DNA from: Natronospira proteinivora
GTDB taxonomy: Bacteria; Pseudomonadota; Gammaproteobacteria; Natronospirales; Natronospiraceae
DNA: 64,000 nt
Assembly (NCBI RefSeq): GCF_024170465.1
Contig: NZ_JALJYF010000001.1
Span: 744,001 to 808,000, forward strand
Reading direction: 5' to 3'
The position numbers and the translations under genes are program-made. Each line of letters opens with the position of its first letter. The stretch's first letter is position 1. Shown one piece after another: positions 19,278 through 22,560 of the stretch. A model generated the notes under the pieces. The model saw only the letters and a list, made by a program, of their open reading frames with translations. It was not told where the DNA came from and did no database searches.

Positions 19278-19550
19278 TTAGCGCTCCTGGTCGGGACGAA
19301 TACGGGTGGGTAGCTGGACAAAGGCGATACTTCCGATGGCCGCCAGCATGACAAAGACCAAGGCCACGATGGCCAGGGCGGGCATGCTCTGGACGTAGGC
19401 CAGCAGCAACATGGTGGCCACCGTGGTGGTGGCGAAAAGCAGCAGGGCCAGCATGCGATCAGCGGGGTTGGGGCCCTGATAAACGCGAAGCAGACCGACA
19501 ATTAGATTACCCAGGAGAAACAGGGCCATGAGCATGAGGATTTGATTCAT
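19278..19550 (-). CDS. mrpF: Mrp antiporter subunit F
   Basis: 90 residues, three helices. The motif RVYQGPNPADRMLAL between the first two helices is diagnostic of MrpF/PhaF, and AIVALVFVMLAAIGSIAF follows. The ATG at 19550 overlaps the mrpE stop in ATGA, so the longer frame that starts inside mrpE is rejected. It belongs to the same antiporter complex. Confidence 0.92.
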   Translation of the reverse strand: MNQILMLMALFLLGNLIVGLLRVYQGPNPADRMLALLLFATTTVATMLLLAYVQSMPALAIVALVFVMLAAIGSIAFVQLPTRIRPDQER

Positions 19551-20053
19551 GGTTGCTGTTCCTGTACCAGGAAGACCCCCTGGGCCCGCTGTTCCAGGCG
19601 TCGACATTCATGAGCCACATCGCCAGAAATACTGTGGACGGTGAGCTGGTCGCCGTCCTGGGATACGGACAGGGTGCCCGGCATGAGACTGAGGCTGCCG
19701 ATGATGATGGTCCGGGCCGGACCATCAACCTCAAAGCGATGGACGTGCTGGCGAATATCCAGGGGCATCTTCGGGTGCAGGGCCCGCCAGGCCACATCCA
19801 GCCCTCCCAGAATAGAACGCTGGATGAAATAGAGGGAGAAGCTTAGAAGGCCGGTCAGGGAGACTGGCTTCAACGTTTCCGGGAGCAGCCAGTGACTGGC
19901 AAACAGAATGAGGATAATGGCGGGCAGGGCGGTCCACCACCCTTGTCCTCCGGACAGGGCAAACCACAGCAGCGTGAGCACGGCGGCCAGTAAGAGCTTA
20001 TTGGTCCATGCATGGCGGTCCAGACGGATTGGTGACATCGAGGATCGACCCAT
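19547..20053 (-). CDS. mrpE: Mrp antiporter subunit E
   Basis: 168 residues. Two or three N-terminal helices (LLLAAVLTLLWFALSG, then LLSFSLYFIQRSILGGLDVAWRA) precede a soluble domain with MPGTLSV and a VHSIS segment, the layout of MrpE/MnhE. It is the first gene of the antiporter operon. Two in-frame ATGs (20053 and 20038) both lack a clear ribosome-binding site, so the start is uncertain by five codons. The gene for the papain-like protein ends only 60 nt upstream on the same strand, so a shared transcript is possible. Confidence 0.9.
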   Translation of the reverse strand: MGRSSMSPIRLDRHAWTNKLLLAAVLTLLWFALSGGQGWWTALPAIILILFASHWLLPETLKPVSLTGLLSFSLYFIQRSILGGLDVAWRALHPKMPLDIRQHVHRFEVDGPARTIIIGSLSLMPGTLSVSQDGDQLTVHSISGDVAHECRRLEQRAQGVFLVQEQQP

Positions 20054-20113: not shown

Positions 20114-22126
20114 TTAGGCCTGGACCACATCATGCCAGTCCTTTTCCGCGGCCCAACTGTTCCGGGCCATTTGTATAATGGCGGCCACTGATTCCTCGGA
20201 TACCGACTGCACATCGCCGATTTCCCTTTCATTGTAGTGGTAGACATACAGTCTTGATACAAACTGGTCAAAGGGCAGGGAAGACTCGCCGGGGATCTCT
20301 CCATGACCTTCCGTGGACGTGACAACCCCCTGGCCCCAGTCCTGGCGGCTTTCATTGTTGGGGTTGAAGAAGTAGACCCGCATCTCACCATCTGGGTCCA
20401 GCGTGACACGTTGGATGGCAATGGCATGCCAACCAATGAAGTGTCCAAAGGAATCCGTGGCTACCACGCCAGCCGGTTGAGGGTAAATGAGTTCGGCGCC
20501 CCCATTGTAAAGGGGATGGTAGGTGGCAAAGAAGCGACGCATGAAGCCCTCGAAATCGATGACGGCGCCGGTGCTGTACTGAATGCAGCTGGCAAAGCCG
20601 CGGTTCACCCACCAGCCGTGAAACTCGGGATTGATCCATCGATGGCCGTCTTCCCCCCGACCCATGATCCGTCGTCCCATTTCCCAGTAGATTTTGTCCA
20701 GGTGGGGAACCAGCAACAGAGAAACCATATCCAGTTCGGTATGAAAGTCTTCGATCAGCCCTTCACTCAGTTCACTGGAACGGATCAGGGCGCCTTCGAA
20801 ATGCATGTCGATCTCTCCGTCCCGGGCGGCCCACATGATCAGTTCCAGCAGATAACCTGGATCACATTGGGACCAAAGGCTGATGGCCCGTGCTGACTGG
20901 CAGGTGGGGTTATTGCCCTGGCCGATACCCAGTGGTTGGCCCAGAACGCTGATTACGCCGGCCAATAGAAGGCTATGTCCGGAACGATGCTCACTGGCCC
21001 CGGACTCCCGGTGGAGCATGTCGGATATTTGGTCATTGGGAACAAAGCGGGTTAACCGCCAGAGGGCCGGGGCAATGGGGGGGAAGAAGAGGATGCCCCG
21101 GTTCAGAAGACAATGCAGTCCATAGGCAGATTGAGCCGTTTCGGCGGAAATCGCTTCACGGACCAGCCTCCGGCACAGGGATTCATAGGCATCCAGGCTG
21201 TCCCGACCTACATTGTCCAGCCCCAGGAGGGTGGCTAGTTCGTCCAGAGGGGCATCGGCAAACTGCTCCAGTAAGCCGCCATGGGCCCGGCAGGCCAGAC
21301 CGCTGGCTGCCAGGCTGGTGCCCAGACGCTCCAGTTCCGGCTGACGTTCCTCCCGGGGCAGGGCTTCCACTGCTTCGGTGTACGCCGCCGTGTCTTGATG
21401 ATGGTGCTGGGCCAACGCGGTGGGACCTCGCCAGGCGGAAACCATCTTCCGTGCCCGCCGGGCCAGGGTCTCATCCTCGATGTCGCTCAGGCGGGGTTCA
21501 ATCCGCTCCAGCATATGCCAGACCGGCGCTACATCAATGGGGCGTTGCTTGAGGATCTTTTCTGATTCTTCCACCAAGGTAGCCACCACCCCTGCATTGC
21601 CCAAGTGGTTGAGCAGGAAGTCCAGGTGGTGGCGGACGGCTTCTCGTTGGCCATCTACGACATCTCGGCCAGCCTCAGAGTGATCGGGCAGCACCAGGTT
21701 GATATTCAGGGCCAGTACCCGCTCCAGAAAGCCCCGTGCCTGTTCTGCCGACAGTTCCGAATACTCGGACTGTCCCTGGCTGATGGCGAGCATGCGCAGC
21801 TCACTCAGGCATTCCAGGGCGGCGGTTCGGGCCGGGCCGGTCAGGGCGCCACGGACCAAATCGGGTTGCAGTCGTTCCGGGTAATGCCAGTCTGTCCCGT
21901 AGAACACGCCGGCATCCTGGAAGCGGGGCGCAAATTCGAACAGACGATCAAGGCCACCAGGCAAGCGCATGAGACGACTGGCTAGATCCAGCAGCTGGGT
22001 CTGGTAATTGATCTTGGCAAAATCTCGGGCAGAATCCAGGCGGCTCAAAGCTTGGTCGAAGCGATCCATATTGCGTTCCAGCAGAGCCGAATCATTATCC
22101 ATGGGACCGCGTTCCTGTCTGTTCAT
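20114..22126 (-). CDS. Unrecognised protein with papain-like Gln-Cys-His-Asn pattern
   Basis: About 670 residues from the ATG at 22126; an in-frame ATG at 22102 is an alternative. I do not recognise the family. There is no signal peptide or membrane segment. The first 380 residues look mostly helical and leucine-rich. The C-terminal third has GQGNNPTCQSARA, in which Gln403 and Cys409 are spaced exactly as Gln19 and Cys25 of papain. His567 (FIGWHAIAIQ) and Asn588 (YFFNPNNE) follow in the order and setting of a clan CA cysteine-peptidase or transglutaminase-like site. The gene lies 60 nt upstream of mrpE and may head that operon. Hydrolase function is inferred from motif geometry only. Confidence 0.75.
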   Translation of the reverse strand: MNRQERGPMDNDSALLERNMDRFDQALSRLDSARDFAKINYQTQLLDLASRLMRLPGGLDRLFEFAPRFQDAGVFYGTDWHYPERLQPDLVRGALTGPARTAALECLSELRMLAISQGQSEYSELSAEQARGFLERVLALNINLVLPDHSEAGRDVVDGQREAVRHHLDFLLNHLGNAGVVATLVEESEKILKQRPIDVAPVWHMLERIEPRLSDIEDETLARRARKMVSAWRGPTALAQHHHQDTAAYTEAVEALPREERQPELERLGTSLAASGLACRAHGGLLEQFADAPLDELATLLGLDNVGRDSLDAYESLCRRLVREAISAETAQSAYGLHCLLNRGILFFPPIAPALWRLTRFVPNDQISDMLHRESGASEHRSGHSLLLAGVISVLGQPLGIGQGNNPTCQSARAISLWSQCDPGYLLELIMWAARDGEIDMHFEGALIRSSELSEGLIEDFHTELDMVSLLLVPHLDKIYWEMGRRIMGRGEDGHRWINPEFHGWWVNRGFASCIQYSTGAVIDFEGFMRRFFATYHPLYNGGAELIYPQPAGVVATDSFGHFIGWHAIAIQRVTLDPDGEMRVYFFNPNNESRQDWGQGVVTSTEGHGEIPGESSLPFDQFVSRLYVYHYNEREIGDVQSVSEESVAAIIQMARNSWAAEKDWHDVVQA

Positions 22127-22278: not shown

Positions 22279-22560
22279 ATGTCGCGTCCCCTGAACGGGA
22301 ATCCATTGATCAAGGCATTGGCCGCCATCGGGGCTGTTCTGGTGACGGCATTTGCCATTTTTCTGGGGGCCATGGCGTTTCTGGCCTTTCTCGGTTTGGC
22401 GATCATCGCCTTCATTGCCTTTCAGCTTCGCCTCTGGTGGCTAAGGCGGCGCGTGGCTGCTGCCCGCCGTCGCCGTGGTGGGCAAGCAACACGGCGCCCA
22501 CAGGGGCGGGTTATTGAGGGTGAGTATTCCAAGCGCGCTCAAGACGACAAAGACCATTGA
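22279..22560 (+). CDS. Small membrane protein of unknown function
   Basis: 93 residues. One long or two tightly packed hydrophobic helices (about 10-50) are followed by an extremely arginine-rich stretch (WWLRRRVAAARRRRGG) and a charged tail. GGGAGG lies 7 nt before the ATG. It is divergent from the papain-like gene and 32 nt upstream of ppa, so it may share the ppa transcript. No family recognised; a positively charged cytoplasmic tail after the membrane helix is likely. Confidence 0.7.
   Translation: MSRPLNGNPLIKALAAIGAVLVTAFAIFLGAMAFLAFLGLAIIAFIAFQLRLWWLRRRVAAARRRRGGQATRRPQGRVIEGEYSKRAQDDKDH

Follow-up and report, generated by a model that had tools for sequence, protein, structure and literature searches.

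A papain-like protein found in several bacterial phyla is probably part of an amide-bond pathway with an ATP-grasp ligase

Here we describe P0001, a protein of 670 residues encoded in a window of 64,000 nucleotides from Natronospira proteinivora (contig NZ_JALJYF010000001.1, positions 744,001 to 808,000). It is probably part of a bacterial pathway that makes and breaks amide bonds, and not of the sodium antiporter operon that it adjoins. We see an even chance that P0001 works in the cytoplasm as a papain-fold cysteine amidase or transpeptidase, together with an ATP-grasp ligase of the L-amino-acid-ligase type and usually with a deacetylase of the HDAC type, a reading in which we infer the catalysis, its direction and the substrate.

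An invariant papain-type residue set in a protein of no recognised family

The P0001 gene lies on the minus strand (22126..20114) as an open frame of 671 codons including the stop. Initiation at an alternative in-frame ATG further upstream, at 22306, would yield 730 residues. Since the congeneric relatives begin at the same methionine as the 670-residue form (MNKQERGP, MHRQQKGP), 670 residues is the right length. The N-terminus reads MNRQERGPMDNDSALLERNM and, judged by eye, has no evident signal peptide; the protein is likely cytoplasmic, as had been proposed from the sequence alone.

The sequence-only reading had also picked out Gln403, Cys409, His567 and Asn588 as a papain-type active site and had named their conservation in homologues as a check. 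Indeed, all four are present and are invariant in 100/100 and in 113/113 homologues in two alignments, the second made of distinct sequences, and because of this invariance the four-residue pattern is more than chance. None of the 113 lacks Cys409, which is the sole invariant residue among seven cysteines; the other six match the query's cysteine in only 5 to 22 of the 113. On the minus strand, the codons lie at 20918..20920 (Gln403, candidate oxyanion-hole residue), 20900..20902 (Cys409, candidate nucleophile), 20426..20428 (His567, candidate general base) and 20363..20365 (Asn588, candidate third catalytic residue).

Invariant positions make up 6% of the N-terminal region (residues 1-368) versus 21% of residues 370-640. 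They include a second cluster, H475, D477, D493, H495 and E501, invariant in the 113 homologues and joined by H503, which is kept in 106 of them (residues 475-506; window positions 20609-20704). Within it, the motif HRWINPEFHGWW (residues 495-506; 20609..20644, minus strand) is the best-conserved stretch of the family. This cluster falls outside the papain triad and is possibly a metal or substrate site.

That P0001 belongs to no recognised family was borne out. It has no match to Pfam or NCBIfam profiles even at an E-value of 10, and no meaningful relative among PDB sequences, whilst 63 family members gave scattered single profile matches only (best E 0.001). PADLOC profiles matched neither P0001 nor its ATP-grasp partner, and a role as a defence system was dropped on that ground.

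The earlier proposal of either a clan CA peptidase or a transglutaminase-like enzyme found support in its first part. The Gln, Cys, His and Asn set, in this order, is that of papain, calpain and staphopain, and the structural hits of the model are peptidases. In transglutaminases, NlpC/P60 proteins and CHAP amidases the third residue is usually Asp or His, whereas here it is the invariant Asn588, and there is no Pfam match to these groups; their absence from the list of structural matches points neither way. Cys-His-Asn together with an upstream Gln points to the peptidase branch over the transglutaminases, although transferase chemistry is still allowed.

The C-terminal half is predicted to be papain-like

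An AlphaFold2 model built from 63 sequences reached a pLDDT of 91.5 and a pTM of 0.87. Residues 1-368 (21023..22126, minus strand) form an all-helical N-terminal region according to the AlphaFold2 secondary structure, fold searches and conservation, and residues 369-632 (20231..21022, minus strand) a papain-like domain according to structural alignment and the order of secondary structure elements. In the model, Cys409 is the first residue of helix 409-421, His567 lies within strand 563-576 and Asn588 directly follows strand 582-587. Papain has the same order, with Cys at a helix start, His in a strand and Asn after the next strand. The model therefore has the cysteine opening the core helix, as in clan CA.

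Profile searches had found no papain core, and a Foldseek search with the whole model returned nothing at E<0.001. Realignment with VIA-align did find one, in that rows 1 to 21 were all papain-like. Calpains scored Z 8.3-7.2 (calpain-3 core, Z 8.3 over 201 residues at 4.3 A) and staphopains Z 7.5-7.3 (best Z 7.5 over 136 residues at 3.6 A), with cathepsin B and bleomycin hydrolase ranking lower; values of Z near 8 are quoted as background for models that lack a clear match, and are weak alone. The aligned range of P0001 consistently runs from about 369 or 398 to 632. It starts at residue 398 against staphopain residue 13 and at 399 against cathepsin B residue 19, which puts Cys409 in register with staphopain Cys24 and cathepsin B Cys29, assuming a gapless stretch from the start of the range to the cysteine; we take these two to be the catalytic cysteines of their enzymes. 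Because independent papain subfamilies agree, the range is constant and the cysteine is in register, a papain-like fold is credible, and the papain reading of the C-terminal half is supported at moderate strength. For the N-terminal half, fold searches gave weak ARM/HEAT-like matches only.

A structural role would preserve such a fold too, and P0001 might then be a papain-like but catalytically dead scaffold. Gln, Cys, His and Asn are however invariant in 113/113 homologues while identity within the family drops to 40%, and we consider a dead scaffold highly improbable.

An ATP-grasp ligase, and not mrpE, is the conserved partner

The mrpE open reading frame (20053..19547, minus strand) lies 60 nt from the P0001 gene on the same strand, just as the sequence-only reading had noted when it proposed a link of P0001 with the antiporter genes and with ion homeostasis and named synteny with mrpE as a check. 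To its credit, this order is kept in two other species of the genus. The adjacency is nevertheless confined to the genus (loci L001-L003 and L006). A scan of the genome collection yielded at least 472 relatives, from which 80 loci, the closest carriers, were kept; mrpE is adjacent at one of them, that of the congener, and the other 79 are without it. The conserved partner is instead an ATP-grasp protein, and the Mrp tie, largely refuted by synteny, now seems to us very improbable indeed.

The ATP-grasp gene has about 407 codons. At 56 of the 80 loci it immediately precedes the P0001-family gene on the same strand, the two being separated by a median of 58 nt; at a further seven it is convergent (three), divergent (three) or downstream (one). 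In evenly drawn samples the P0001 family is rare (13/369 genomes of the class, 11/398 of the phylum and 3/246 of the Nocardia class), and in the class and phylum samples searches with P0001 and with the ATP-grasp protein return identical genome sets; further ATP-grasp proteins, with E above 1e-21, are left out of the count for the class sample. The ATP-grasp gene was also found in 15 of 15 carrier genomes tested singly, eight of which lack it at the fetched locus; every one of about 35 tested carriers of the P0001 family has it. The genome of N. proteinivora is itself such a case, with the ATP-grasp gene at C1:821036-822250, 55 kb from P0001 and beyond the window. As the two genes co-occur even when physically separated, we argue for a shared function. 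The distance matrix of one family correlates with that of the other at r 0.80, a value in which shared species history is left in. Mean identity is 81% for the ATP-grasp protein versus 60% for the papain-fold protein; differing thus in conservation, the two may not share one substrate site.

A model of the ATP-grasp partner (pLDDT 88.8) matched L-amino-acid ligases over its full length, with VIA Z-scores of 31.1 to 3vot and 30.6 to 4wd3. Its invariant E264, E277 and R281 align with the Glu and Arg residues with which these ligases bind ATP and Mg. As modelled, the partner is an ATP-grasp ligase of the L-amino-acid-ligase fold, for which dipeptide synthesis is a prediction. The known enzymes BL00235 (3vot), RizA (4wd3) and BacD/YwfE (3vmm, 3wnz) resemble it in whole-chain fold (Z 27-31), in a weak profile match (1.9e-5) and in the aligned Glu and Arg residues. 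It differs from them in that identity is 14-18%, that it is paired with a papain-fold protein and that no antibiotic cluster was seen nearby.

The ATP-grasp protein (e.g. L005, 3511-4731), with its 81% mean identity across phyla, carries a conserved QEELDFYV-like C-terminal tail. Neighbouring genes were called with a codon-bias caller. In the genus, the ATP-grasp gene adjoins a gene for L-piperidine-6-carboxylate dehydrogenase (NF050084, above cut-off; L104:9033-11952 on G000:C1, outside the window). This neighbour is confined to the genus and absent at other loci, and a role in lysine catabolism was therefore dropped. A RiPP-type system was set aside as well, since the small open reading frames within 1.5 kb of the pair form no lineage-spanning cluster and are shared only within Marinobacter.

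A deacetylase often accompanies the pair

The pair has a class II HDAC-type deacetylase as a neighbour, in varying gene orders, in G006, G276, G818 and G362 and in Wenzhouxiangella, Alcanivorax and Pseudomonadales bins, and the second ligase copy of G395 has one as well. A close relative was present in 17/20 carriers versus 0/20 non-carriers (Fisher p 2.6e-8), at a cut-off of E<1e-90 that was chosen after the result had been seen and with non-carriers not matched by phylogeny. N. proteinivora has its own relative at C2:858443-859519; at the same cut-off, the deacetylase is absent from Nocardia (G384), from G654, which lies outside the class, and from G177. We regard the HDAC-type deacetylase as a likely third member of the system.

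In G188 and G295 a GNAT gene directly follows that of the deacetylase (L203:9621-10073 and L204:9106-9588), and the nearest solved structures to the G188 GNAT are spermine/spermidine acetyltransferases. Deacetylase and GNAT together hint at an amine substrate, lysine or a polyamine, an idea that draws on the deacetylase plus a single GNAT family, present in two genomes within one genus (g173).

Proposed function

In the mechanism that we propose, the ATP-grasp ligase would spend ATP on linking a carboxylate and an amine through a peptide or amide bond. Cys409 of P0001, with His567, Asn588 and the oxyanion residue Gln403, would then attack this bond by way of a thioester, ending either in hydrolysis or in movement of the acyl group to another amine, and the deacetylase would free the N-acetylated amine. 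As substrate, the most likely class would be amines, for instance lysine or a polyamine, conjugated to an amino acid or peptide, and the helical N-terminal half of P0001 would probably dock the ligase or a protein substrate. More tentatively, at somewhat better than one chance in three, the three genes together may form an undescribed cytoplasmic system whose product is built and taken apart again, either an amine conjugate, with a polyamine or as a lysine peptide, or a protein tag that is added reversibly. Such a system would have a patchy distribution, in Gammaproteobacteria and the rest of the Pseudomonadota as well as in Actinomycetota and a few further phyla.

The large helical N-terminal half of P0001 is of a kind often used in protein binding, which would suit a narrower alternative in which the ATP-grasp protein modifies the end or a side chain of a protein with an amino acid or short tag, which P0001 removes. 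The pairing of ATP-grasp and papain-like proteins recalls tubulin tyrosine ligase and vasohibin, and no conserved small precursor frame occurs near the pair, so that any peptide target would be encoded elsewhere. Against such a cycle, the nearest structures to the ligase are dipeptide ligases of free amino acids and not protein ligases, no conserved neighbour offers itself as a target protein, and the deacetylase suits a small amine better, although HDACs act on proteins too. We hold a protein-tag cycle to be unlikely.

Comparison with known systems

The papain superfamily is well known, and so are pairs of an ATP-grasp and a papain-fold enzyme. P0001 shares with calpain (C2), staphopain (C47), cathepsin B (C1) and bleomycin hydrolase the order and spacing of Q, C, H and N, the cysteine at a helix start (C409) and a structural alignment over residues 369-632. 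It differs from them in having no detectable sequence relation, a helical N-terminal half of 368 residues, a second invariant His/Asp/Glu cluster, a probably cytoplasmic location and an ATP-grasp partner.

As for pairs, glutathionylspermidine synthetase/amidase combines an ATP-grasp with a CHAP amidase (PMC10318531, and general knowledge). It thus has the same pairing of an ATP-grasp amide-former with a papain-fold amidase, and the amine-conjugate chemistry that we presume here. In our case, by contrast, there are two separate proteins, the ATP-grasp is of the L-amino-acid-ligase type and the papain-like domain is Cys-His-Asn; a CHAP profile matched none of 63 members of the P0001 family. In tubulin tyrosine ligase and vasohibin, likewise, an ATP-grasp adds and a papain-fold enzyme removes, but these proteins are eukaryotic, the vasohibin triad is Cys-His-Ser (PMC4866520) and the ligase is of another type. 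The Anbu-linked system of circularly permuted ATP-grasp, alpha-E and transglutaminase also joins an ATP-grasp, a papain-fold enzyme and a helical domain. It was rejected, as alpha-E occurs in 12/23 carriers versus 14/43 non-carriers (p 0.19, no association) and hhalign gave a probability of 1% for a relation between alpha-E and the N-terminal half of P0001.

The P0001 family is undescribed, and so is its pairing with the ATP-grasp ligase, within the literature searched; no paper there joins these parts, though an earlier mention is still possible. The curated family libraries that were searched name neither of the two proteins. When a bond-making enzyme and a likely bond-breaking one are strictly paired across phyla, this is usually the sign of a complete pathway. 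Here, that would mean a new family with the papain fold and perhaps a novel metabolite of the amine-conjugate kind, or a novel protein modification, in bacteria.

Distribution of the family

Homologues of P0001 are of similar length, 40-75% identical and spread over several phyla. Relatives in two other species of the genus are 74-75% identical, and those in two related genera 43%. The 80 kept loci are mostly from Gammaproteobacteria (Natronospira, Wenzhouxiangella, Halomonas, Marinobacter, Alcanivorax, Halorhodospira), with others from Nocardia, Hoyosella, Mycolicibacter and Rhodospirillaceae and single records from Planctomycetes and Cyanobacteria.

Many of these closest 80 carriers are halophilic or marine, which would fit one-way biosynthesis, where the ligase makes a dipeptide and P0001, as a transpeptidase or transglutaminase-like condensing enzyme, takes the next step towards a metabolite that can diffuse, for example a compatible solute. 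The L-amino-acid-ligase fold of the partner and the capacity of papain folds for transpeptidation agree with this. However, the Nocardia carriers are not halophiles, the excess of halophiles is biased by the query, and no transporter, oxidoreductase or regulator recurs beside the pair outside single lineages. We put this at roughly one chance in five, on a level with the protein-tag cycle.

In the protein tree the Actinomycetota require at least two changes, which fits transfer; alternatively, paralogues or contaminated bins may account for them. One family member (L098; G362:C130:1215-3203) has a single in-frame TAA with its catalytic residues intact, and is either a pseudogene or an assembly error. 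Another match lies on a Halomonas megaplasmid, in a record without annotated genes. Three genomes (G701, G764 and G799) each carry the papain-fold gene in triplicate and the ATP-grasp gene in two or three copies, which suggests that they carry paralogous pairs.
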